Shown here piece by piece: positions 18,442-60,951 of a stretch of DNA of 64,000 bases (positions are counted from its first letter, which is position 1; each line of letters opens with the position of its first letter). The stretch covers positions 100,032-164,031 of IMG/VR virus record IMGVR_UViG_3300009702_000016; one strand, written 5' to 3'. The stretch comes from a virus. Both the position numbers and the translations under genes were made by a program. Below the pieces are notes generated by a model. It was not told where the DNA came from, made no database searches, and saw nothing but the letters and a program-made list of their open reading frames with translations.

Positions 18442-19473
18442 ATGTCTAATCGTATCGTACTTAATAGCAATGAGATTGCCACCAACGAGGATGTCCAGAG
18501 TGCCCAAGACTGGCTGTCTCGTGACCTTAGTCGTGTTCTAGAGGGACTTACATTTGGTTCGTTAGACCATAAGCCTTCATCGGGATTCGAAGGCGGTGCG
18601 ATTGTATCTGGACTCGAAGTTAGTTTGTCTTCCTCAAACTTGACTGCTGTCATATCTCCCGGTGTTGCTGTTTTCTTTGATGAGTCAGTCGACACAACGA
18701 AAGATAGTCCCTACAAGATAGGGACACTCACAAGCCCTCAGACTGTCACCCTAAAGCCAGCTTCTCCGGTGTCTCGTTGGGACCTCATAGAGATTTCTCT
18801 AGGGGAAGTGACAACCTCTGAGATTAGAAGGGTAAAGGGACCCTCTGGATTCACTGATACATCAGTTCCTAAGGTAGTCACTAGGTCCATCACGGCCAGA
18901 GTCCGCCAAGGTGAAGCTTTTTTTCAGACTTTGCCTGTCATAACCTTGGCTGGATATCTTCCTCTTGCAGGATTAAAGGTTACCGTTGGGGCATCTACGC
19001 TAAGTAATAGCGTACCAATTGATTTCCGTAAGATGGCAAGTAACTTCTCCCCAAGTGCTTCCTATACTGAGCCGTTTGGTTTGGATGGATTTTCTAGGCC
19101 TGTGTCTTTCCGTGTCAAAGAGGACAACTTTACTGTATCCACTTCCAGAAATACAGCTATAATCGGACAGTATCGGGGACCCGTAGCCTCTTCGTTGTCC
19201 ATCTCTGCCCTCGGTCTAGCTACGGAGCTTACTGAGTCTCCGCTGGTAACCCTTGACGATTCTTCTCCTGACAGTTTTCCGGCTTCTTCTTGGCGGTACT
19301 TGTACGCCTATCGTCCCTCTTTTTTGTGCGGTTATACTTCCCTGTGTTTCTCTCCGGTACCTCCCAGAGTTCCTGGCTCTTCTGGCTTTGGTCCAGTTGA
19401 TAGTATACGTCCTTCGTCTGCTTTTAGTCCCCCTGCTCCGTTCAATCCAGCAGAGTTGATAGGTGTTGGGTAA
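18442..19473 (+). CDS. putative baseplate/fibre protein, 343 aa
   Basis: The N-terminal helical segment (NEDVQSAQDWLSRDLSRVLEGL) is followed by a beta domain with the phrase GLEVSLSSSNLTAVISPGVAVFFD and PVSRWDLIEISLGE, a pattern (value at a default, 'xxRWDLI') common in phage baseplate or tail-fibre attachment proteins. The C-terminal 60 residues are Pro/Ser/Phe-rich. It lies 12 bases after the previous gene and 9 bases before the next, so it is co-transcribed. Structural function is inferred. Confidence 0.6.
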   Translation: MSNRIVLNSNEIATNEDVQSAQDWLSRDLSRVLEGLTFGSLDHKPSSGFEGGAIVSGLEVSLSSSNLTAVISPGVAVFFDESVDTTKDSPYKIGTLTSPQTVTLKPASPVSRWDLIEISLGEVTTSEIRRVKGPSGFTDTSVPKVVTRSITARVRQGEAFFQTLPVITLAGYLPLAGLKVTVGASTLSNSVPIDFRKMASNFSPSASYTEPFGLDGFSRPVSFRVKEDNFTVSTSRNTAIIGQYRGPVASSLSISALGLATELTESPLVTLDDSSPDSFPASSWRYLYAYRPSFLCGYTSLCFSPVPPRVPGSSGFGPVDSIRPSSAFSPPAPFNPAELIGVG

Positions 19474-19482
19474 GCACTCTAC

Positions 19483-19989
19483 ATGGGGGCCTTTCTCACG
19501 TACACGGACTCCGTGTCTTCGACAACTAAAATTCGTCCCTCTGTGAAGTCTGGCGGGTTCACTCGGCAGATCTATCTGGCAGAAGCTCCCAGCACTCCTC
19601 CCTCCGCTTCTTCCGCTACAGGAGGAGAGATTATTGATCCCAACTCTTCTATTGTGTCCTCCATTCTCGTAAACCCAAGAGATCTGCTAGTTGGGGCACC
19701 ACACCCTATGTCAGCTACCATGGTCCGGGTGGATGTTCGTCTTCGCTCCTCTTCCTCCTTTCCGGTGGGAACGCTCCACACTTTCCGGTTCCGTTTGGTT
19801 TATGCCGGTTCATCTGACGAATCTGTTCTTGATATTAGAAGGCTTGATTCCGGCGAGGTTGTTAGCTTCATGGTTGACATCCCTCTGCCTGAGACGTCCT
19901 ACAAATCACTGATAGTAGACACTGACTCCACTGCGGTTTCTGGTAACATTATTACCTTACGCGCCGTTGGCTTTTTCGAGGCCGTCTGA
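19483..19989 (+). CDS. beta-rich hypothetical structural protein, 168 aa
   Basis: Not recognised. After a Ser/Thr/Pro-rich N-terminal part, the C-terminal 100 residues form a compact beta-sandwich-like sequence (MVRVDVRLRSSSSFPVGTLH ... IITLRAVGFFEAV). It is embedded between two baseplate/fibre-type genes and coupled to the next by TGATG. It could be a small wedge, adaptor or decoration protein. Confidence 0.55.
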   Translation: MGAFLTYTDSVSSTTKIRPSVKSGGFTRQIYLAEAPSTPPSASSATGGEIIDPNSSIVSSILVNPRDLLVGAPHPMSATMVRVDVRLRSSSSFPVGTLHTFRFRLVYAGSSDESVLDIRRLDSGEVVSFMVDIPLPETSYKSLIVDTDSTAVSGNIITLRAVGFFEAV

Positions 19990-31069: not shown

Positions 31070-31689
31070 CATTAGAAGGGAGAGCAGGGTGGCTCCACCC
31101 TATAGGTGTGACCTTATTCCTGCTTACTCTGCTCTGCAGTTCTCCTGCTCGCGCGCTCTCCGTACTTGTTATCGGGGACTCTCATACTGGGGCTATAGGT
31201 CCGCAAGTATCTTCTCTCCTACGCTCCTCGGGCAATTCCGTTCGTGTGGTCTACCACAACGGCTGGTCGGTAAAGAGTTACTTGGAGAGGCCCGGTGGGT
31301 TTCCTCATGGTCACCCTGACCTTGCCATTGTTCTTCTTGGAGGGAATAATAGAGAGCTGTCCCTGGACCGATACACTCCCTTGGTACTTTCCATGCTCCG
31401 CCGTTTGGGTGCCCGTCACGTTCTGTGGGTGGGGCCTTTTCCTGCAGAGCCAGCACACACTAGGTCTCGGCATCAGCGTACTAGGAAGATGCAGCTGTAT
31501 GTTTTTGCTTCTAGGCCCGATGTGACTTGGCTTGACCCTTCCTACGATTTTAGGGGCATCGACCATGTACGGGATGGGGTTCATTACCGTGTCCCTTCCT
31601 ACTCTGGGTTTTCTTCTGTTTTGTACAGGTATGCCCACTTTCTAATCCAAATGTTAGAGGACGATTTATTAGATGACAACGTCTTATGA
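31066..31689 (+). CDS. secreted SGNH/GDSL-type hydrolase, up to 207 aa
   Basis: A hydrophobic signal segment [16 protein letters not shown] is followed by SGNH blocks: block I VIGDSHTG (Asp38-Ser39-His40 counted from 31066; GDSH instead of GDSL), block III-like LLGGNNRE (Asn94), and block V DGVHY (Asp170, His173). SGNH enzymes are esterases or deacetylases, including cell-wall and polysaccharide O-acetyl esterases; export points to the periplasm or envelope, but the substrate is unknown. The start is uncertain: GTG 31066 overlaps the upstream stop, but a repeated intergenic-type element (31070-31101) would then be coding, so GTG 31108 may be the real start. The 3' end overlaps the topoisomerase B start. 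Confidence 0.65.
31070..31101 (+). promoter_or_regulatory. repeated palindromic element, copy 1
   Basis: CATTAGAAGGG is followed, 5 bases on, by AGGGTGGCTCCACCCT (31086-31101), a hairpin with 6-7 bp arms. Copy 2 at 34184-34213 shares the same flank and core; copy 3 at 62323-62338 shares only the palindromic core. Like copy 2, it begins at an upstream stop codon. A control element (operator, RNA processing or mRNA stability hairpin) is inferred. Confidence 0.5.
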
Positions 31690-31852
31690 TGCATCGAGCA
31701 TTCAGGTCCTAGAGGATCTGGAACACATACGATTACGCCCTGGAATGTATATAGGGTCACAGGATTCTGAAGGCATCCGTCAGATCTTGAAGGAGTTAGT
31801 CGATAACGTTTTACGAGTGGATGGAAGGTCATGCCACCTCTCTGCTCGTTGA
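31673..31852 (+). CDS. topoisomerase II subunit B, 5' part (before apparent frameshift)
   Basis: ATG 31673 opens a frame encoding the conserved first 46 residues of a GyrB/ParE protein, including [14 protein letters not shown] and the ATPase N-box LKELVDN (Glu41, Asn45). After codon GTT 31808-31810 the homology leaves this frame, which stops at 31850-31852. The continuation lies in the frame of the next entry. Reading D-N-V and then Y-E-W-M-E-G-H-A requires skipping one T in TTTT (31809-31812). See the paired entry and finding. Confidence 0.7.
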
Positions 31853-33527
31853 GATAGACACGAAGGAGCATTCCTTTCGAGTAACTGACGATGGTCGAGG
31901 AATCCCCGTCGAGAAGCATGAGAAGACCGGGGAAAGCACACTAACTACGGTATTCACAAACCTCCAGGCAGGCGGGAAGTTCTCCAAGGACAGCTACGCT
32001 ATCTCTGTGGGACTTCACGGCGTCGGACTAAAGGCGACGAACGCGCTTAGTGACAGACTCCTAGCTCGCGTATGGAGAAAAGGGCATTGTTATGAGCAGG
32101 AGTTCGTGCAGGGAGACCCAACTACCAAGAGGCCCAGGAAAAACAAGGGACTAAACAAGAGAGGAAAGCACGGTACAGAGATATTCTTCCATCCAGATCC
32201 TCTCATCTTTGGGGATAGCCAAATTGATATCTCTCACGTTGTTCGGTGGTTAGGTGAGTGTGTTCATCTTTGCCCCGGTCTAGCTCTTAAGCTGGTGGTT
32301 GATGGGGAAGTAAAGAAGGATATGCGCAGTGGCGGTTTGGATCAGATGGTTGCTGACATGGCCTCTGCGGGTTCTGATTCTGGATTGCACGTTCCTGTCG
32401 TGATATCCTCTGAATCGAATGAAGTATCTGCTTCTTTCTTGTGGAGTGAAGGCGAGGGGGACCATTGGTTCAGCGCATGTAACGCTAGCTCTACTCCAGA
32501 GGGAGGAAAGCATGTAGAGGGGTGTCTAAAGGCAGTTGGGGCGGCGTTGGGTCCTTACGCAAAGAAGAGAAAAGTGGACGCTAGGGACCTTGTAGATGGC
32601 CTGTACGCAGCTGTCCATGTGCTTGTTCCTGAGCCCCAGTTCAAAAGCCAGACGAAGTCCCGGTTGCTGAACACCGAAGTCAGAGACACGGTGTACGAAG
32701 TGGTGTACCCGCAGCTAAAGTCATTTTTTGACCTGAACAAGAAGCTGGCAGATAGAATTGTAGTCAGGGCGTCTCAGATCAGGAAAGCCCGGGATAGCTA
32801 TAAGAAGCTAAGGAAAGCGATAAACACAAAGGTCGTAAAGCGAGATGCAAAGGGAGTTTTGCCTGATAAGCTGGTAGAATCGATGCACTGTAAGCCCGAG
32901 CATCGTGAGCTTTTCCTCGTGGAGGGAGACTCCGCAGGTGGAAGTGCGAAGCTCGCAAGAGACCCGTCATACCAGGAGGTTCTTCCTTTGAAGGGAAAGA
33001 TTCCCAACGCCATACAGCGCCCTGACTCCCTGGTGATGAAGAACTCGGAGATATCGTCTATTATTACGGCCACAGGGGTGCGTCTAGGGGATGACGGAAA
33101 GTTCAGTGACCTGAGCAACGTCAGGGTTGGTCGCATCTTACTCTTGATGGACGCAGATCCAGACGGTGGGCACATTTCTAGCCTAGTTCTGTCCTTCTTC
33201 TGTAAATGGATACCTGATATCGTACGTGCCGGTTACCTCTATATCGTGGATAGTCCTTTGTTTTTGGGAACGTATAAGGGAAAGCAGTGGTTTTCCCATA
33301 CGCTGGCTGAGTTGGAGAAAGAGGTGGGAGTTTCCTCTTCGAAGATGCAGGTTTCTAGGATTAAGGGACACGGAGAGGTAAACTATCCAGTGCTTAGGCG
33401 TTATGCTATGGATCCCGACACTAGGAAATTGTGGAAGGTCACACTCGGTGATACAGATACGAACGTCATAGCCTCTTTGATGGGGTCTGACTCTAGTGGA
33501 AGAAAAAGTCTGTTTGGAACTGTTTGA
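31821..33527 (+). CDS. type II topoisomerase subunit B (GyrB/ParE-like), main part, apparent +1 frameshift
   Basis: The protein contains the GHKL ATPase G1 box DDGRGIPV, G2-like [11 protein letters not shown], and the toprim domain with [11 protein letters not shown] (Glu) and [15 protein letters not shown] (Asp-x-Asp). It is the ATPase/toprim subunit that works with the 34747 product to pass DNA strands. It lacks the N-box residues because these lie in a different frame upstream (31673-31810). The full reading would be about 617 residues, close to ParE size. A start at ATG 31821 alone would give an ATPase without its catalytic Glu, so a frameshift, either real or a homopolymer error, is the better explanation. 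It is followed by a membrane metalloprotease gene, a separation from subunit A uncommon in bacterial pairs. Confidence 0.85.
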
Positions 33528-41245: not shown

Positions 41246-44200
41246 ATGGCAGACGTTCTCACTACAGACAGGGCTACTCGTCCCGGAACATATATTGGTA
41301 GGGTCAATAGGACAAATCCAACGGGACTTACTGGGTACGCCCGTCTGCCCGCTTACGTGGGTAAGGGAAGTCGTTTGCGCACTGTGTTCAACAGTGCAAT
41401 TCGAAGGAGCTACCTTTCGGATGTTACACTGACTTTTCCTACTATTGCTCCTCACCTGGTTACTCTTGTCTATCCGGCTCTGAATGACCAGACGACCGCG
41501 ACCATGTTTAGGACAGATGGTACAATCGTACCCGCGAGCAAGTGGGAGTTCCTAGAGTCAACGCCTGGAAGTGGCATTTTTGATTCGGTTTTACTGCTCC
41601 CTGAGGAGTACTCCATTACTGTCGGGTATTCCCTCGACTACCAGTCGACCTCTCGCCTGATTCAGGATGTGATTCCTTTTGATAGCACTCGACAGGTTCG
41701 TTTTGTGGGAGACACGGAGAACCAGAATCAGTACCAGGAGTTCGTCCACTACTACATTCCAATCACGGTATCTGCGATCACTCCGGGTGCTTCCAACGCT
41801 AACTCAGCTGTTACTGACGTTGGGTTTGAGCCTGCACGGGTTATCGGTTCCGTTACGGACGCTGCGCCTTATGCGCTGACTGGAAAGACCCTTGATTTCA
41901 AAATCGACGGTGTCGCTCAGCCTACAGTTACCTTTAGTGCCACTGCTACAACAGCAGCACTTGCTGTTGCTGAAATCAATGCTGCAGTTGGGTCTACAGT
42001 TGCTTTCGCTCACACGGTGGGCACCGCACAGTCTGTGGAGATTCGATCTCCAAGTGTTGATCCGACTCTATCCGCTGTGGAAGTTACAAGTGTTGGAGCT
42101 GCTGAAGCAGTTTTGGGCATGACTGCGGCTGCCCTCAACTCACAGTTCCCCACTGTCGCAATGGTCGGGGCTGGTACACTTACGGGCGGCTATATGAGGG
42201 ATTTGTCTTCTGTTGCGTCGAACGCACAGATGGCAATTACTGGGGGGTCTTCCCACGACTACAACCGACGTTACAGACTGACAGTTACTAGCGTTACTCC
42301 CAACATTTTAATGGATCTTGAGGTGTTTGAGGACTCTGGAGCGTCGCTGACAGAGTTTGCCGAGGGCGCAACCCTCTCGGCTTCTGATGTTTTCGGACCC
42401 ACTGCTGGGGGTAGTCAGCCTCAGGTTCCATTTCATAGCTCTGTTGCAACCACCGCTACTGCGCTAGACTTCGGCACAGTTATCGCTGGAGGTGGTGTAT
42501 ACACTGCTGTATCTTTTACGGACATAACAGGAGATGTTGTCAGCTTCGTATTGGATGCGTTGGCTGCGGGTCTAACTGCTGGGTCTGTTTTTGAGGGTAC
42601 CTCTCTTGGTCAGTCCATCGTTGAGTTGGATTCTGCTCTAACGAATACGAAGCAGCATGCAAGTTTCTCTGCGGTTGGGCAGGGTACTCTGGTGCAGTCA
42701 GGTGCTACACCTAACTACTCTGTCTCTGTGGGAGCAGCCTCAGCGGGCACAGGGTCTGTCGCTCTTCGCTTCGATTCGGAGTACACGGGATCTTATAACC
42801 GTAGATTCCTTTTGTCCTGCACCGCTTCAACCGGAGCAGGAGCAACTGCTACCTTCGCTTGGCAGTCGTGGGGAGAGTTTGACGACCTTCAGTTCAATGG
42901 TGCTTCTCGCACTGTTTCTATTTCTCTGGCTCTTGGTACTAATACCAATATAGACCTTGGAGATGGCGTCCATCTCGATTTCGATTTCGGATCGGGTGCT
43001 GGATTCATTGTTGACGACCTGTTCTGGTTCCAAGCGAATGCCGATAGGTCATTCGTTACCGCAAAGGATGACCGAGTATACGCACTTGAGGTAGCCGCTG
43101 TGGGTGCCTCCTCAGGAGTCAACCAGACTTCCATTAGCTATACAACAGGAACCCCCGAAGGAGGATTCGGTCTTCTTGCTATCACAGGGCCGCAAGGTAA
43201 GATGTTCTTCACGGGAGGAATCAACGCCTGGCTTCGTAACGTCGGGTCCCAGACGACTGCTGCGAACAGGTTTGCCATCGGGGATACCTGGGATTTCAGC
43301 ACTGTAAACGATGACGTTCTAGACTGGTCATTGACGACTCTTGTAACCGAGACGATTGATCCCACCCAGGTTGTAACAGATACCCTTGGTGTAGTCACTG
43401 GAACTGTGGGAATGAAGTACGCGGTACTGTCCAACGTTCCCTCCGCTGTGCTCTATGTGAAGGACACAGTGACAGGCGCTTCAGTTTCCAGTGGTGCAGT
43501 TTCCACTACCAGTCCTTACGTCTACTTTACTACCGCTCCTACCTCTCCTGTAGAGGTTAGGTACTCGTACATCGGTGAAGAGCCATCCCCTGCCCAGCTT
43601 TTCTACTTCACGGCGAATGCAGTTCGACCTGTGGAGTTGTACAACATTCCTATTCGAGTTCTTGACTACGATACTGCTGCTCAGCTTCTTGGTCCATCCT
43701 CGACTCAGAATGATCTTCTGATCATGGCGCAGATTGCTCTAGACGACAATAGTGCTCCCGGTGCTTACTTCGTTCAGGCGTACGACAGCGATGGCGATGG
43801 AGTCATTACGACAGTTGATGTGGACAATGCAATCAAGGCGACTGAGGACCAGAGGGCTTTGACCGATGTTATTGTCCTCAGTAGCTTTGGCTCGCTATCG
43901 ACTGCTTTGGCTAACAATGAGAAGATGAACGACCCCTTTGAAAGAGGGGAGCGCGCTCTTTGGGTGGGAGCACCCAAGGGGACTGCCATTGGTGCCACAG
44001 ATACTGCAGGAACCTTGGCCTTCTTGGCTACCCGAACCCTGCAGGTATTTGGTGATAGTCATGCCCACGGTAGGCGAGTTCTTTGCGGCAATACGGAGGC
44101 TACAAAAACCATCACGCTTACGGATGGGACTCAAATTGCTGTAACTCTCGATGGGTCGTTTGTCGCGGGTGCTCTGGCAGCACGAAACGCGAGCTTTACA

Positions 44201-44743
44201 GACCCAGGGGAGACCCTCCTTCGTAAGAACCTGTTTGGGTTTGACACCATCAAGGTGTACACGGAGCCTGAGGAGCTTCAGCTTATTTCTTACTCCATCA
44301 TCTATGTGTCAAACACTGGTGATGATGTAGCCCCTGTTTATCGCATCGAGGAGTCTACTACGGTCGACCGTACGAGTGACGACAACAACGAGATTAGTGT
44401 TGCTATCAACCAGAAGGATTTTGTAACACGAGAGATCAGGACCAACATGGACTCCTCTCTCATCGGAATTGTTCCTCCCAGCGAGCAGGCTGGGGTTGCG
44501 CTTATTCAGGCTTTCCTTGTTTCCAATCTTAAGGACCTTTTGGCCCGTGGAAGAATTGGAGATTACACCGATTCCTCTGGCGCTTCTCGCGCTCTCGATC
44601 CTGATGAGGATGTGAGAGTGTTCCGTGCCAAGGACAGTAAAACTGCCTACAACTTCCAGTACTTCTGGCACGGTAGGTACCCCCTTAAGCGTCTTTTCGG
44701 CCTCTACTCTGTGGACCGGAAGTTCTTTGGTAGCCAGGTCTGA
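41246..44743 (+). CDS. tail sheath protein, 1165 aa
   Basis: The N-terminus RATRPGTYIGRVNRTNPT is the 'rPGvYi' opening of contractile tail sheath proteins, followed by LPAYVGKGSRL. The C-terminal about 350 residues, with a core of SSLIGIVPPSEQAGVALIQAFLV, LKDLLARGRIGDYTDSSGA and the closing YNFQYFWHGRYPLKRLFGLY, fit the conserved C-terminal sheath domains. Between them lie long beta-rich inserts (residues about 175-600), making this far larger than the 400-700 residues usual for myovirus sheaths; the inserts probably form surface-exposed domains. It polymerises around the tail tube and contracts at infection. It is followed by unknown small proteins and a tube candidate. Confidence 0.75.
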   Translation: MADVLTTDRATRPGTYIGRVNRTNPTGLTGYARLPAYVGKGSRLRTVFNSAIRRSYLSDVTLTFPTIAPHLVTLVYPALNDQTTATMFRTDGTIVPASKWEFLESTPGSGIFDSVLLLPEEYSITVGYSLDYQSTSRLIQDVIPFDSTRQVRFVGDTENQNQYQEFVHYYIPITVSAITPGASNANSAVTDVGFEPARVIGSVTDAAPYALTGKTLDFKIDGVAQPTVTFSATATTAALAVAEINAAVGSTVAFAHTVGTAQSVEIRSPSVDPTLSAVEVTSVGAAEAVLGMTAAALNSQFPTVAMVGAGTLTGGYMRDLSSVASNAQMAITGGSSHDYNRRYRLTVTSVTPNILMDLEVFEDSGASLTEFAEGATLSASDVFGPTAGGSQPQVPFHSSVATTATALDFGTVIAGGGVYTAVSFTDITGDVVSFVLDALAAGLTAGSVFEGTSLGQSIVELDSALTNTKQHASFSAVGQGTLVQSGATPNYSVSVGAASAGTGSVALRFDSEYTGSYNRRFLLSCTASTGAGATATFAWQSWGEFDDLQFNGASRTVSISLALGTNTNIDLGDGVHLDFDFGSGAGFIVDDLFWFQANADRSFVTAKDDRVYALEVAAVGASSGVNQTSISYTTGTPEGGFGLLAITGPQGKMFFTGGINAWLRNVGSQTTAANRFAIGDTWDFSTVNDDVLDWSLTTLVTETIDPTQVVTDTLGVVTGTVGMKYAVLSNVPSAVLYVKDTVTGASVSSGAVSTTSPYVYFTTAPTSPVEVRYSYIGEEPSPAQLFYFTANAVRPVELYNIPIRVLDYDTAAQLLGPSSTQNDLLIMAQIALDDNSAPGAYFVQAYDSDGDGVITTVDVDNAIKATEDQRALTDVIVLSSFGSLSTALANNEKMNDPFERGERALWVGAPKGTAIGATDTAGTLAFLATRTLQVFGDSHAHGRRVLCGNTEATKTITLTDGTQIAVTLDGSFVAGALAARNASFTDPGETLLRKNLFGFDTIKVYTEPEELQLISYSIIYVSNTGDDVAPVYRIEESTTVDRTSDDNNEISVAINQKDFVTREIRTNMDSSLIGIVPPSEQAGVALIQAFLVSNLKDLLARGRIGDYTDSSGASRALDPDEDVRVFRAKDSKTAYNFQYFWHGRYPLKRLFGLYSVDRKFFGSQV

Positions 44744-54858: not shown

Positions 54859-55932
54859 ATGTCACTAAGCGCTAGTATCCAACCGTACACCGAGGGGCTC
54901 TCACCGGAGAACAAAAAACAGGCTTTGCGTGCCGTTAGTTCTTTTATCCTACTAGGGGACTACAGAACGTACAGAGAACAGATAAAGTCGTTGCCCAAGC
55001 GTCACCACACCCTATTCTACAAAGATGTGATGGGGCTTCTTAAGTCCAGCTTTGAGTGCAGGAACATATGGAGAACGGTGTACTATCGACTAAAGCACCC
55101 GGACAAGAAGACTTCCGTAGTGGCGAAGAAGTTTTACGTGCCCAAAGAGAGCTTGAGGTTAGTGTGGGGATCTCTGCTGTCGGAAGACAAAGAGGCAGTG
55201 CGGGAGAAAGCACGGGGAGAAATGGATTTCGGGCTTCTCACGAAAGAAGAGATGGAAGTTATGGTCAAGTCTCTGACGCGGTATTGTGGCCGCGTTTCTT
55301 ATTTAAAGCTCAGGTTTCTGGCCGATAATGATCATGCTTATGACCTGGCTGACTTCAAGAACGAGTTACTTGCCAAGGGAATACAGACAGTGAGGGCGTA
55401 TGAGCACACCCGTGACCTGAAGATGATCGAGAATTACGCAAAGGCTTCGATTCAGAACTACGCAATAAATCTAATCCAGTACTACACGAGTGAGTCTAGA
55501 GCGTGCGTGAAGAATACGACTGAGGGGTGTGGGACATGCGTCTTCTGCCTCTCGGACATGCCTCAGCGGTGCAAGGATGCTGTGGCTTCCTACGGCCTTA
55601 CAGCAGTTAGTTTGGACTTTCCCTCCCTTTCCTCCTCGGTTCCTTCCGCCATGGATATTGAAAGCAAGGTCGGAGAGTCTCTTCTGGTGAACTACTTGAA
55701 GGAGGGGTCCCCTGATACGACAGCAAAGATTATCGATTTGGTCTTTGGCAAGGAAGTGGACGAGGACTTTGAACTCTGGCTGTTTAGCCACGAAGGAGTG
55801 ACGGTGGACTACTTGCTGAAACGCCCAAAGCGGTATGTAAAGACCCTTTGTTCGTACCTTGGGGTCTCGAACCGAGAAGTTCAGAAGGCTCTTCGCACGA
55901 AGTACCAGAACTACATTAGTAAGGCGGTTTGA
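54859..55932 (+). CDS. sigma-like factor (region 2-like), 357 aa
   Basis: Residues about 140-215 (RVSYLKLRFLADNDHAYDLA, then DFKNELLAKGIQTVRAYEHT and MIENYAKASIQNYAINLIQY) resemble sigma-70 region 2: an acid-led helix (DLADFKNELLAKGI for DLIQEGxxGLxxA), then a Y/F-rich segment with A-x-x-x-I-x-N in place of ATWWIRQAI. A Cys cluster (CGTCVFC, with further Cys) follows, unlike standard sigma factors. The C-terminal part (YVKTLCSYLGVSNREVQKAL) could be a region 4-like helix-turn-helix. T4 gp55 and SPO1 proteins are known sigma-like phage factors that direct late transcription. The family call is from pattern only. It is coupled by TGATG to the clamp loader gene. Confidence 0.5.
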   Translation: MSLSASIQPYTEGLSPENKKQALRAVSSFILLGDYRTYREQIKSLPKRHHTLFYKDVMGLLKSSFECRNIWRTVYYRLKHPDKKTSVVAKKFYVPKESLRLVWGSLLSEDKEAVREKARGEMDFGLLTKEEMEVMVKSLTRYCGRVSYLKLRFLADNDHAYDLADFKNELLAKGIQTVRAYEHTRDLKMIENYAKASIQNYAINLIQYYTSESRACVKNTTEGCGTCVFCLSDMPQRCKDAVASYGLTAVSLDFPSLSSSVPSAMDIESKVGESLLVNYLKEGSPDTTAKIIDLVFGKEVDEDFELWLFSHEGVTVDYLLKRPKRYVKTLCSYLGVSNREVQKALRTKYQNYISKAV

Positions 55933-57029
55933 TGAGTATTCGATTCGTAGACAAATACCGGCCTGATAGCCTGTCCGACGTGGTGGGGCAGGATAAGGTC
56001 GTTGCTCAGTTGGAGGGAATGCTAGCTGAGAAGAAACTCAATGGAAACACTCTTCTTCTGTCCGGTCCTTACGGGGTTGGAAAGACAACCCTGGCTCGTA
56101 TCATAGCTCGTACCCTGAACTGCGATAAGGGCGGTTCCTCCCCCTGTGGGGAGTGTCGGTCTTGCAAGACAAGCGTTGATAGTCACCCCGACATTGTTGA
56201 GATCAATGCAGCTAGCACTCGTGGGATTGACGATATTCGTACTCTGATCGAGACCTCTCGTCTTCGTCCTCGCCACAAGGTTAGGGTGTTCATCATGGAC
56301 GAGTTGCACCAGCTTACTGGTCCTGCAGCCCAGGCTTTCCTCAAGGACTTAGAGGAGCCGAAGTCTCACCTTCTGTACATCCTCTGCACGACTGAGCCCT
56401 ACAGCATCCTCCCAACGATCCGCAGCCGTTCCGTGTGGCTAAAGCTTAAGTCTGTGTCATCACGGGATATTTCTCGTCTTCTCCGAAAGGTATGCAAGAG
56501 GGAGGAACTGGAGACGAGTACCGACGTCTTGAAGTACATTGCTCAGCTTTCGGATGGGCATGTTCGTGATGCACTCACTAGCTTGGACCAGATATCGTCG
56601 GCGCACTTGGCTACAGCTACTGCGTCTGAGATCCAGAAAGCTCTTCCTGAGCTTTCAGAGGGCATCCTAGGTGCTTCTCCTGCGTATTTGGTGCCTAAGT
56701 TTGTGGCGGGCCTCTTTTCAAGAGATCTCTCTCCCCTTATTCACGTTCGTAAGGTAGACAACCACGACTATTTCCTAGGAATGGTTGTCAAGTTTCTAAA
56801 GGAATACTTGATTTTTAGGATCAACCCTGACGCCGTGGACAGCAAAGATGTCATTGCGTTCAGTAAGACGCATACGGCGATAAATTCGAAAGAGTCCTTG
56901 CTGTCTTTGTTAGAGGACATGCTTCAGTTACAGGCCGAGATCAGACGCCATTTGGTGGACCCCATCGATGCGTTTGATGCGTTTATTCTCAAATCCCTCT
57001 TAGTTACACTCTCACCGAAGAGACGATAA
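55932..57029 (+). CDS. DnaX-like clamp loader subunit (gamma/tau type), 365 aa
   Basis: The AAA+ domain starts FVDKYRPDSLSDVVGQD, with Walker A GPYGVGKTTLARI (about 45-57), a zinc-binding Cys set CDKGGSSPCGECRSC (as in bacterial DnaX), Walker B IMDELHQLTG (a DELH box) and an arginine-finger region TIRSRSVWLKL where SRC is usual. ATP-driven opening of the sliding clamp is expected. Its 365 residues are near the gamma form without tau extension. ATG 55932 overlaps the preceding TGA; TTG 55929 is the in-frame alternative. The neighbour order sigma, clamp loader and recombination ATPase suggests a replication operon. Confidence 0.85.
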   Translation: MSIRFVDKYRPDSLSDVVGQDKVVAQLEGMLAEKKLNGNTLLLSGPYGVGKTTLARIIARTLNCDKGGSSPCGECRSCKTSVDSHPDIVEINAASTRGIDDIRTLIETSRLRPRHKVRVFIMDELHQLTGPAAQAFLKDLEEPKSHLLYILCTTEPYSILPTIRSRSVWLKLKSVSSRDISRLLRKVCKREELETSTDVLKYIAQLSDGHVRDALTSLDQISSAHLATATASEIQKALPELSEGILGASPAYLVPKFVAGLFSRDLSPLIHVRKVDNHDYFLGMVVKFLKEYLIFRINPDAVDSKDVIAFSKTHTAINSKESLLSLLEDMLQLQAEIRRHLVDPIDAFDAFILKSLLVTLSPKRR

Positions 57030-57361
57030 TGCCCCATAACCTGCCGAATACGAATAAGGTTCATGTTCCAGTTTTAACTCCCAAGGTGGACTGCTCCTAT
57101 TGCAACGCCCCTTGCTGTAAGTTGATTGTGGAGCTTTCTCCAGAAGAGGCAGAGAAGTACGAATCTGTTCCCTGGGACTTTGGAGAGGGGGAGGCTCAGC
57201 ATGCCCTTGCGCGTCGAGACGACGGCTATTGTGTCTACTTCGTTGTTGGCAGTGGGTGCTACATCTACGATGATAAGCCTAACGTATGTAACGTGTACAC
57301 CTGTGAGAACGACTCCAGGATCACACCCTCCAACAAGTATGGCTCCTCAAGAAAGCTCTGA
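57029..57361 (+). CDS. CxxCxxCC-type zinc/iron-binding protein (YkgJ-like), 110 aa
   Basis: The N-terminal CSYCNAPCCK and later DGYCVYFVVGSGCYIYDDKPNVCNVYTC reproduce the pattern of the YkgJ-type family (CxxCxxCC, then C, then KPxxCxxYxC), thought to bind zinc or iron. Function in the family is unclear. Start by TAATG overlap and end adjoining the next start (TGATG), tightly coupled to the clamp loader and Rad50-like genes, which suggests a link with DNA metabolism. Confidence 0.65.
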   Translation: MPHNLPNTNKVHVPVLTPKVDCSYCNAPCCKLIVELSPEEAEKYESVPWDFGEGEAQHALARRDDGYCVYFVVGSGCYIYDDKPNVCNVYTCENDSRITPSNKYGSSRKL

Positions 57362-58383
57362 TGCACGTTGACTTCCTAAGCTTGACTTTGGACAACGCTG
57401 TGTGCTTCAAGCACGCCTATATGCCCCTGAAGGACCAGGGTCTTGTTCATATCAGGGGCGAGAACCTAGATGAGGGAGGAAGTAACGGGTCTGGAAAGAC
57501 ATCTCTTTTCGAGATGCTATTCTACCTATTCTATGATCGGCTGACAAAGTCCCCACGACAGGTCAAGAAAGACGAGCTTCTCAACGTATACCATCCTTCG
57601 AACTTTGTGCTTCACGCTGAGATTCTTAGGGAGGGTGTGCCTTACGTCGTGGAGAAGTATCGAAAGGTACCGAAGAAATACCAGAAGGTTAAGAACAAGT
57701 CGTCTGGTGTCGACCTGTGGCGTGATGGAGTTCATGTCACCAAGGACGACCCAAGAGAGGCACAGAAGGAGATTGCAGGACTTCTTGGCAGGTCTTGGAA
57801 TGAAACGAAGGGCTCTATTTACCTTGGTCAGAGGCATATACATCAGATGATTGACGGAACTCCGTCTGAGAAGAAGCTGTATATGAGCCGGTACTTTGGG
57901 TTGGACTCTTTGGACGACATGATCTCTACAGTGGATAAGAGGATCAATGCAATTCCACTGCCTGATGAGACTCATCTTAATTCCCTCCTTGAAGGTGTGC
58001 TGTCGGACCTGGAAGCGATAGGGGACCTTTCCTCCTTGGATGAGGAGTGCGAATCTCTCGTCGAAAAGAGGGACTCCCTTCAATCTAAGATGATTGATGC
58101 AAGGTCGAAGCTGTCCGCACAAGAAGAGGCAAGGGATATCCAGAAGGAACAGAAGAGGTGGAGAAAGTTTCTGTCCTCCAAGTTTGACCTGGGGTTGGAT
58201 ACGGATGAGATCAAGGAGGCACTAGAGGAAAGACGGTCCCTTATTTCCTCCTTGTCCGAAGACCTTCGTTCAGTTCAATCCCGGACAACTATTCTTGGGG
58301 AGATTGAGGACTTGGGTGGGGTTCTAGACGATGACCCTAGTGCTCGCCTTGAGTTGTTGGGGGATTCCCTTCGTGACCTATAG
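57361..58383 (+). CDS. Rad50/SbcC-like ATPase, N-terminal part ending at in-frame TAG
   Basis: The N-terminal Walker A is SNGSGKTSLFEMLFYLFYD (about 40-58), with a head domain (to about 200) and a coiled-coil part (DSLQSKMIDARSKLSAQEEA). This frame stops at TAG 58381-58383 (…LRDL), but the same frame continues without a break from 58384 into the second half listed next. The combined protein is about 765 residues if the TAG is read through. In this coiled-coil position a Gln codon CAG differing by one base would be natural. Functionally the head-tail ATPase acts with an SbcD/Mre11 nuclease, which is not seen in this window. Confidence 0.8.
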   Translation: MHVDFLSLTLDNAVCFKHAYMPLKDQGLVHIRGENLDEGGSNGSGKTSLFEMLFYLFYDRLTKSPRQVKKDELLNVYHPSNFVLHAEILREGVPYVVEKYRKVPKKYQKVKNKSSGVDLWRDGVHVTKDDPREAQKEIAGLLGRSWNETKGSIYLGQRHIHQMIDGTPSEKKLYMSRYFGLDSLDDMISTVDKRINAIPLPDETHLNSLLEGVLSDLEAIGDLSSLDEECESLVEKRDSLQSKMIDARSKLSAQEEARDIQKEQKRWRKFLSSKFDLGLDTDEIKEALEERRSLISSLSEDLRSVQSRTTILGEIEDLGGVLDDDPSARLELLGDSLRDL

Positions 58384-58386
58384 CGC

Positions 58387-59658
58387 TTGCTTCCCTCTCT
58401 AGAGAAGAGAAAGCGATTGGAAAAGAAGTTGTCTCGCACAGAAGAAGACGACTTACCCACTAAAAAGTTAGAATCACGAAAAGAGAAGTGGGAGAATCGT
58501 CTCTCGGAGAACTCACCAGAGCTTTCTGTGCTGTCTTCTGAGTTGTCCAGGCTATACAAGGTGGGTGACTCCTGTTACGCCTGTCTGCGCCCAATCTCGC
58601 CCCAGGAAAAGGAAGAGATGATTGCAGAGAGGGAGAAGGCGAAGGAGTCCTTAGAGAAAGTGTGCGAGAACGCTAAGTCTGCCATGAACTCCTATACCGA
58701 ACGTCTAGAAGTTGCTGAGGAGAGGACTGCCCTGCTGCTGGAGTTGGACGACTTGCCTGAGGGGGATGCTGACGAGGTGTCTACCCAACTAGAAGAGGTT
58801 CGAAAGGAGCATCGTAAGCTCAAGTCTCTACAGTCAAAGTTTGTTCGTCTCAGTGTTCTTAACGGTAAGCTTTCTGACCTACCTGAGTGTGAGAAGTCCG
58901 AGGAGGCACTAGCTTCTGAGTTGCAGGAGGCAACTGACGAGAAAGACTTGCTGGATGACGCCTACCAGTGGATTCTTCAGTGTGGATCTGTGACTTTCGA
59001 TGTCTACGCCTATAAGCGGTTACTGAGCGCGATTGAGACCTATGACAGTAGGCTAAGTGCTACGAATGAGCGTCTCTTCTCACTTCAAGAGACACGGGCT
59101 CAGGCAAAGACACTTCAGAAGCAAGAGCAGGAGATCACCAAAAAGTTGAACACTGCTTCACGGGAAAAGACAAAGTCTCAGGCATTGAGCTACGTTCAGA
59201 TTACGCTGAAGGAGCTTAAGAAGATGGGTCTTCGGGAGTCGACCAAGCTACTGACGAGTGTTCTTCCTATCTACTTGGAGCAGTTATTTCCCAAGGGAGA
59301 TATCGAGCTGGCTCCCACTGACAACTCGGATGGGTTCGACCTTGTTTTCAACAAAGGTGGAAAGAATCTACCCTTGACGCTTATCAGTGGCGGCCAAGCA
59401 AAGAGGGTAGGACTCGCCATTGTTTTTGCTTTTGCGAAGATGGGCCGCAATACCTCGAACCTTCTCATTTGTGACGAGCCTTTTCGGGATCTAGATAAGA
59501 ACGGGAGAGAGGCATGCTTCGAGGTTCTTCGTGACTTTGACATGGGTACGATTCTGGTTACTTCGCACGACCAAGACATGAACGCTTCAAAGAAGTACGA
59601 TCAGGTGTGGACTGTGCAAATGAAGAATCATGTCAGTACTCTTTACTTGGATGGTTGA
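58387..59658 (+). CDS. Rad50/SbcC-like ATPase, C-terminal part
   Basis: Same frame as the preceding entry, beginning right after its TAG; the TTG at 58387 could serve as an independent start. It has a zinc-hook-like CYAC (about position 405 of the joined protein, within GDSCYACLRPISPQEKE), long coiled coil, the ABC signature LISGGQAKRVGLAIVFAF and Walker B LLICDEPFRDLD (about 701-712). All C-terminal head elements are present. Whether the halves are made separately and assemble, are joined by readthrough, or result from a mutation cannot be told from sequence. The next gene starts 4 bases later. Confidence 0.8.
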   Translation: MLPSLEKRKRLEKKLSRTEEDDLPTKKLESRKEKWENRLSENSPELSVLSSELSRLYKVGDSCYACLRPISPQEKEEMIAEREKAKESLEKVCENAKSAMNSYTERLEVAEERTALLLELDDLPEGDADEVSTQLEEVRKEHRKLKSLQSKFVRLSVLNGKLSDLPECEKSEEALASELQEATDEKDLLDDAYQWILQCGSVTFDVYAYKRLLSAIETYDSRLSATNERLFSLQETRAQAKTLQKQEQEITKKLNTASREKTKSQALSYVQITLKELKKMGLRESTKLLTSVLPIYLEQLFPKGDIELAPTDNSDGFDLVFNKGGKNLPLTLISGGQAKRVGLAIVFAFAKMGRNTSNLLICDEPFRDLDKNGREACFEVLRDFDMGTILVTSHDQDMNASKKYDQVWTVQMKNHVSTLYLDG

Positions 59659-59661
59659 CAC

Positions 59662-60951
59662 ATGGCAGGACTAGTCGGTATCGCGTTTACTTCCCCCGCA
59701 ATTGCTGTTACGGTAATAGACCATGACCTGTTCCGGGTACACTTCTATCGTAAGAACCCCGGAGCGCTTCATGCCTTTCTTCAGGAGGCGGATGACCGTC
59801 TTCCTATCGTTCTCCTTTCCTCGATGAGAGACCTGAAGAGGGTTGAGAAGGTGAAGGGGGTGCATGCATTTCTTCTGGCAGAGGACCCGAGAGCCTTGTT
59901 TGAGGTGAAGGGGGCCAACATCCTAGATGCTGTCCCTGACGAGAAGCATTTGGGGTACAAGAAGATGGATATCACTCCAGAAGATATCAACTCGGCCCTT
60001 TCCCTTCCTCCCTCTTTTGAGATTACTGAGGAAGCACTAGCTGCTCTTGGTTCATTGGCTGATGACATCTCTTTCTATGAGCTTGTGCATGGCGTCACTG
60101 AGGGGTACAAGGGTCTTCCTGATGAGTACGAGACGAACATCTGTATGTACGTAGTTCGTGCGCTTCAGCGCCGATCCTGGGTGGCTAGAGTGCAGAAGCC
60201 CGGTCTAAAGGCAGGAGTGCCCGTTGAGAAGATGGCGGAGATTGAAAAGTACATTGATACTTCTCCTTTTTCGGATCTTCTTTGGCGTGCATACTATGAC
60301 CACGTTGAGAATAAGGTCCCTCTGGAGGAAGTAGTTTCTCAATATGAGGCGAACAAGAAGGACTTAGAGTACGTGATAAAGGTTCTAGGAGAGAGTGAGC
60401 TGAAGTACTGTAAGCTCCCTGAGGACTCACCCATCGTTTTCAAGAAGAGGAGAAAAGTGAGAAAGCTAAAGCCTATCGCCCCGCATGGTACGTCCGTGTC
60501 CCCTTTGGCACGCAAGTCACCCCGCAAAAAGAAGAATCCAAATTCGTCTGTTCTTGGGGCTTTACTGTCCTCTTTGGACGAGTCACTTGCTGGAAAGGAG
60601 AAGTTCGACCACTGCTTCTCTAGGACTGCCTGCGCCTTTCTGGTGGGTCTGCTCTCTGGGGATGCGTTTTCTGAAGCGAGCCGTCTAGCAGTCAAGCAAG
60701 GCGCAAAGAAGGCTACTGTAGTGGACCTCGTGAAGTTTGTGAGATCGGCCCAGGACTCCTCAAATACCCAGTCAGCCTATTGCTACTATACCTACTCTGT
60801 GGGGGTCACGGCCTCCTCGGCTGCTGAGAAGTACGGTGTGTCTCCTGTCGTTTTGAAGACGATACTTAAGTACAAGCCGTTGGCCCTGGTTTCTCCCTCG
60901 AAGACTACTTTTCTACAGTGGCCTGACGGCTTGGAGCCGTGGTCTATGTGA
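59662..60951 (+). CDS. hypothetical protein, 429 aa
   Basis: Not recognised. The N-terminal part (GIAFTSPAIAVTVIDHDLFR) is an alpha/beta domain of about 150 residues, a helical middle follows, then a basic stretch near 270-300 (KKRRKVRKLKPIAPHGTSVS) and a C-terminal domain (LDESLAGKEKFDHCFSRTAC onward) whose last 90 residues include AAEKYGVSPVVLKTILKYKP, a helix-turn-helix-like segment. It lacks the metallophosphoesterase motifs of SbcD, which would be expected next to a Rad50 gene. A DNA-binding or transcription role is possible from the basic patch and the helix-turn-helix-like end. Confidence 0.6.
   Translation: MAGLVGIAFTSPAIAVTVIDHDLFRVHFYRKNPGALHAFLQEADDRLPIVLLSSMRDLKRVEKVKGVHAFLLAEDPRALFEVKGANILDAVPDEKHLGYKKMDITPEDINSALSLPPSFEITEEALAALGSLADDISFYELVHGVTEGYKGLPDEYETNICMYVVRALQRRSWVARVQKPGLKAGVPVEKMAEIEKYIDTSPFSDLLWRAYYDHVENKVPLEEVVSQYEANKKDLEYVIKVLGESELKYCKLPEDSPIVFKKRRKVRKLKPIAPHGTSVSPLARKSPRKKKNPNSSVLGALLSSLDESLAGKEKFDHCFSRTACAFLVGLLSGDAFSEASRLAVKQGAKKATVVDLVKFVRSAQDSSNTQSAYCYYTYSVGVTASSAAEKYGVSPVVLKTILKYKPLALVSPSKTTFLQWPDGLEPWSM

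Follow-up and report, generated by a model that had tools for sequence, protein, structure and literature searches.

An SbcC/Rad50-like gene with one in-frame TAG in a jumbo-phage contig: a stop probably specific to the assembled sequence

Introduction

Among phage proteins, the SbcC-like subunit of the palindrome-specific endonuclease is represented by phrog_77, with members in, for example, Bacillus phage BM15 and Proteus phage Stubb (D13). As in the family, an intact protein of this kind would close its two heads on ATP and join its two coils through the zinc hook, and the SbcD subunit would cut DNA ends or hairpins. In the code-15 megaphages, such as Lak, TAG is used in many genes and the phages encode a CTA tRNA and RF2 (PMC6784885; see also PMC13037316). 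An in-frame stop in a prokaryotic gene is often a polymorphism of short duration, and genes of phages and transposons have an excess of such stops (PMC7918605).

The window analyzed here, the whole stretch of 64,000 nucleotides, corresponds to positions 100032-164031 of a 164,031-bp IMG/VR record. An initial annotation had described in it a Rad50/SbcC-like gene with all its motifs in one frame and a single in-frame TAG at 58381-58383; both points were borne out, the first by translation and by the match of the two parts to phrog_77. The comparison with related phages presented below suggests that the gene is probably an ordinary SbcC/Rad50 gene, and that its stop is peculiar to the assembled sequence and shares a contig-specific cause with other lesions.

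Architecture of the gene

The frame 57361-59658 (plus strand, as are its parts, its neighbors and the two other broken genes of the window) has 766 codons, with the internal TAG and the terminal TGA counted, and upon translation the TAG was its sole internal stop. The 340 amino acids encoded before it (57361-58380) comprise the half of the ATPase head that bears Walker A, together with the greater part of the ascending coiled coil, as judged by a Pfam AAA_23 match (E 2e-9) and by an AlphaFold2 model. The Walker A motif GGSNGSGKT lies at 57475-57501, and its residues N42, G43, G45 and K46 are invariant in 18 homologues. The open frame that follows the stop (58387-59658, starting at TTG, 423 aa), assigned by its PHROG match and conserved to the same degree as the first part, contains the end of the ascending coil, the zinc hook, the descending coil and the Walker B half-head. 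Here are located the hook motif CYAC (58573-58584; C405 and C408), the ABC signature SGGQ (59386-59397; S676 and G678) and the Walker B motif LLICDEP (59461-59481; D705 and E706), the named residues again being invariant in the 18 homologues.

Both parts matched the phrog_77 profile in order, the first at profile positions 295-592 (E 1e-22) and the second at 561-952 (E 6e-37); judged from the sequence, such an ordered match to one PHROG is not chance. Walker A, signature and Walker B of an ABC-type head were all found, and PDB sequence matches were to Rad50. In the AlphaFold2 model of the read-through protein (mean pLDDT 84.5) two coiled-coil arms are connected by a turn at residues 401-413, and the top fold match among solved structures was the Rad50 of 7zr1. 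By sequence criteria, 57361-59658 is an SbcC/Rad50-like gene, which adds an otherwise ordinary member to the SbcC family of phages. Membership is assigned to the predicted gene and its lineage, not to the product of the sequence as written.

Genomic setting

Gene order in the contig was collinear with that of the 388-kb record G001 and largely as in the 392-kb record G004, and therefore the contig would represent less than half of a jumbo-phage genome of about 390 kb. Two genes upstream of rad50 is located a clamp-loader ATPase gene (55932-57029; Pfam DNA_pol3_delta2, E 5e-32), and directly upstream a small CxxCxxCC gene (57029-57361; Pfam CxxCxxCC, E 6e-6) whose TGA overlaps the rad50 ATG. 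Three nucleotides past the rad50 TGA starts a conserved gene of 429 aa (59662-60951), adjacent and 40% identical in G001, and adjacent and 48% identical in G004. The rad50 locus of G001 (L014) keeps this neighbor order, with clamp loader, CxxCxxCC gene and a gene of about 430 aa. The 429-aa protein gave no Pfam or PHROG match; it adjoins rad50 also in G001 and G004, and it is a possible functional partner of Rad50. A gene for an SbcD-like partner is present on the same contig, at record positions 73615-74655 (Metallophos; phrog_100), not next to rad50. Elsewhere in the window, 41246-44743 encodes a protein of 1165 aa with 58% identity in G001 and no Pfam or PHROG match; the sole tblastn match to this protein among annotated phages was in Virus Rctr197k.

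Relatives of the gene

Single-protein scans with each Rad50 half or with the clamp loader returned no relatives, and an alignment query was needed. Unbroken homologues of the same clade were found in G004 (locus L127, 49% identity, 760 aa), G003 (L125, 46%, 763 aa), G001 (L014, 39%, 761 aa) and G002 (L015, 31%, 767 aa), and a fifth relative, G015, has an open rad50 frame of 771 aa with zero stops. The frame of the contig is collinear with all five. Comparison with homologues, proposed by the initial annotation as a check, thus gave five unbroken genes out of five, none with an in-frame stop at codon 341 and none split. The single continuous polypeptide is true for all five relatives and untrue for the contig as assembled; in the lineage, the SbcC/Rad50 chain would be continuous and about 760 residues long, and would provide an SbcCD (Mre11-Rad50) nuclease with its ATPase and coiled coil.

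Identity before and after the stop was 46 and 52% against G004, and 42 and 49% against G003. Since identity after the stop is at least as high as before it, the downstream part shows no decay, and hence the stop would either have arisen recently, be read through, or not exist. There is no conservation at residue 341, which is GAG (Glu) in the two closest relatives, so that the CAG-to-TAG change suggested initially is less well supported. An exact DNA scan for other alleles of the stop site, with the codon left open, gave no match in a record set from which near-identical entries may be missing, and the search for alleles in bacterial and archaeal genomes gave just two weak, distant matches.

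Other lesions on the contig

Six clade records were compared gene by gene by tblastn, with about 41,000 codons tested in the contig and about 245,000 in its five relatives. The contig (G000) had three in-frame stops, namely the Rad50 TAG, a TAG in a head-tail connector gene and a TAA in a tail-like gene, as well as a frameshift in a topoisomerase II gene. No convincing in-frame stop was found in the relatives by the same screen, which left aside alignments extending beyond the end of a gene as well as, at about 310.8 kb of G015, a short patch with a double frameshift; G004 had one weak frame change. With lesions distributed randomly in proportion to codon number, three stops against none would have a probability of about 0.003, and two against none of about 0.02.

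The connector gene lies outside the window, at record positions 59631-60767 (L122:631-1767). Its TAG, codon 38 (record 59742; L122:742-744), is directly followed by GTG, and relatives have Ser or Ala at the position of the stop codon; identity to relatives is 54-75%, and homology is intact on both sides of the TAG. In the topoisomerase II large-subunit gene (31673-33527), one continuous frame in four relatives, the frame changes near 31807-31815, right after the ELVDN motif: 7 nt instead of 9 nt separate the DN and E codons, and 2 nt are apparently missing. The tail-like gene (18442-19989) is cut by the TAA at 19471-19473 into ORFs of 343 and 168 aa, with an ATG restart at 19483; it is continuous and of about 505 aa in four relatives, with only 29-32% identity. 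Two of these lesions lie in the window and had gone unnoticed by the initial annotation, and the presence of lesions in other conserved genes points to a cause acting on the whole contig.

Among such causes, an error in the consensus of a metagenome contig with poor coverage seems the most likely, and we favor it tentatively. It is the simplest, since a viable phage would hardly carry both the connector stop and the topoisomerase frameshift. Three observations fit it less well: the gene with the TAA is weakly conserved and might be genuinely split, the loss of 2 nt is not a usual kind of sequencing error, and there is no surplus of radical residue changes in the contig. At conserved columns these made up 3.6% of private changes, against 2.7-4.3% in the relatives, a result that rules out only a high error rate. 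Both well-aligned nonsense cases correspond to a G:C to T:A transversion from the codons of the closest relatives (GAG to TAG and TCG to TAG), although two cases prove nothing. Oxidative damage also yields G:C to T:A transversions.

The second cause would be a recent real nonsense mutation, which we consider rather unlikely but clearly the next to be reckoned with. In that case the TAG would simply inactivate rad50 in this strain, as a recent loss-of-function allele that leaves a half-head fragment of 340 residues. The short life of many prokaryotic in-frame stops and their abundance in phage and transposon genes, mentioned above, agree with it, and so does the fact that in some hosts a phage can do without its SbcC-type gene. 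Taken alone, however, loss of rad50 leaves the connector, topoisomerase and tail-like lesions of the same contig unexplained.

A two-piece Rad50

The initial annotation had also offered a two-polypeptide ATPase with a restart at TTG 58387. In such a case translation would stop at the TAG, and the two chains would assemble through the antiparallel coiled coil. The TTG is start-capable and lies 3 nt past the stop, a spacing that equals that at genuine gene junctions of the phage, and both parts appear conserved. Among the PDB matches were, moreover, the two-chain entries 1f2t and 3qkr, which we take to be Rad50 half-heads crystallized as separate chains. By analogy with these, a split Rad50 could be mechanically workable; no sign of selection for it was seen. 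Against a working two-piece protein, no relative is split, and no Shine-Dalgarno-like sequence precedes the TTG, although such sequences are weak throughout the phage. The stop falls inside helix 327-359 of the AlphaFold2 model, and the nearby coil breaks at 318-326 and 360-366 are not hit. Furthermore, the other broken genes of the contig are not broken at natural subunit boundaries. A literature search for split Rad50 or for phage SbcC genes with premature stops returned nothing relevant. We therefore regard the two-piece protein as very improbable. Given intact relatives, no sign that constraint is relaxed downstream of the stop, the lack of a Shine-Dalgarno-like sequence, a site in the middle of a helix and damage to other conserved genes, the TAG at codon 341 is likely to occur in this assembled sequence only, rather than to mark a split that has evolved in the gene. 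Of the causes put forward initially, sensible as a set, the CAG-to-TAG change and the two-polypeptide ATPase are consequently those with less support.

TAG usage and amber suppression

TAG terminates 50 of the 171 genes called in the whole record (29%), and therefore the standard code applies. The TAG ends listed initially (14369, 21827, 30650, 38045 and 61542) all coincide with ends of called genes, and the opinion that wholesale reassignment was unlikely agrees with the gene counts. With TAG as a common terminator, found in frame just twice in about 41,000 codons, wholesale reassignment was ruled out.

A more restricted possibility is that the TAGs are real and read through, with an amber-suppressor CTA tRNA encoded in the part of the genome outside the contig and full-length Rad50 and connector made from some messages. 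The search for a suppressor tRNA, also proposed initially, gave a divided answer. None was found on the 164-kb contig, whose sole tRNA is Ser(TGA), but more than half of the genome is missing from the record, including the region in which two relatives carry a CTA tRNA. These are G001 (130879-130954; L101:10879-10954) and G004 (105653-105726), where the CTA-anticodon tRNAs have a good cloverleaf and the loop TTCTAAA and lie amid the region with most of the tRNAs of each genome. Four other records of large phages (L158, L159, L166 and L178) also have CTA tRNAs, located close to the same RNA-ligase gene. Suppression would also be in keeping with an in-frame TAG in two conserved genes, one of them structural, with homology intact on both sides, and with the C that follows the UAG. 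UAG followed by C is a leaky context.

The carriers themselves do not behave as expected from such suppression. G001 and G004 use TAG as a normal terminator, and no convincing in-frame TAG was found in their conserved genes in about 133,000 tested codons. In the contig, the share of genes ended by TAG and the lack of any excess of back-up stops after them indicate that TAG is not behaving as leaky. The CTA tRNA was absent from G003, whose tRNA cluster was covered, and from 400 of the 424 kb of G015. No conserved stimulating RNA structure for readthrough was found, the hairpin after the stop being weak (z -1.9, and 0.1 in a larger window), and the TAA and the frameshift would be left unexplained. 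Two scans of IMG/VR records for the missing genome half, with proteins near the tRNA regions of the relatives, gave no fetched locus sharing 31-mers with the contig. On balance suppression is improbable. The broader proposal, that of a standard-code jumbo phage tolerating occasional amber codons in genes for DNA repair and for structural proteins via its own CTA suppressor tRNA, as an intermediate towards full TAG recoding, must be rated slightly more doubtful still.

An RF-1 domain was not found on the contig, which is less than half of a genome, and is present in G001 and G004. In G004 a release-factor-like gene (L206:1435-2437, minus strand) lies in two frames joined at GGAGGGGACTTTGAG. This site resembles the bacterial prfB +1 frameshift site CTTTGA, in a different part of the gene, and the TVAV/GGQ region of the gene looks RF1-like. 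The same genome, with 44 tRNA genes, has a phage tmRNA called by ARAGORN at 130644-131041, with the tag ANNVVSLFGNVVANDNGTAEPLPLAA.

Discussion

Our results indicate that, before a metagenomic phage gene with one stop is declared split or recoded, the stop should be compared with relatives and with the remaining genes of its contig. Should the TAGs be real, this phage would be a useful example of partial amber suppression, given that its relatives have CTA tRNAs and at the same time use TAG as a normal terminator.

The systems to which this locus can be compared differ from it in distinct ways. With code-15 phages (TAG read as glutamine, e.g. the Lak megaphages) it shares large phages and, in two relatives here, a CTA tRNA; in those phages, however, TAG is sense in many genes, whereas here it normally terminates genes and appears in frame twice in the codons tested. 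With phrog_77 it shares the ordered match, the Walker A, CxxC hook, signature and Walker B motifs, and an SbcD-like partner on the contig. Compared with the five GenBank phage members tested, identity is 20-24% and the protein is about 120-150 residues longer, and, in contrast to those phage systems, the SbcD gene is not adjacent and the contig gene has one TAG. A third comparison is with the jumbo phages G001, G003 and G004 and the record G015, of the same clade, which have Rad50 frames of 760-771 residues, all uninterrupted by in-frame stops, unlike the frame of the contig described here.
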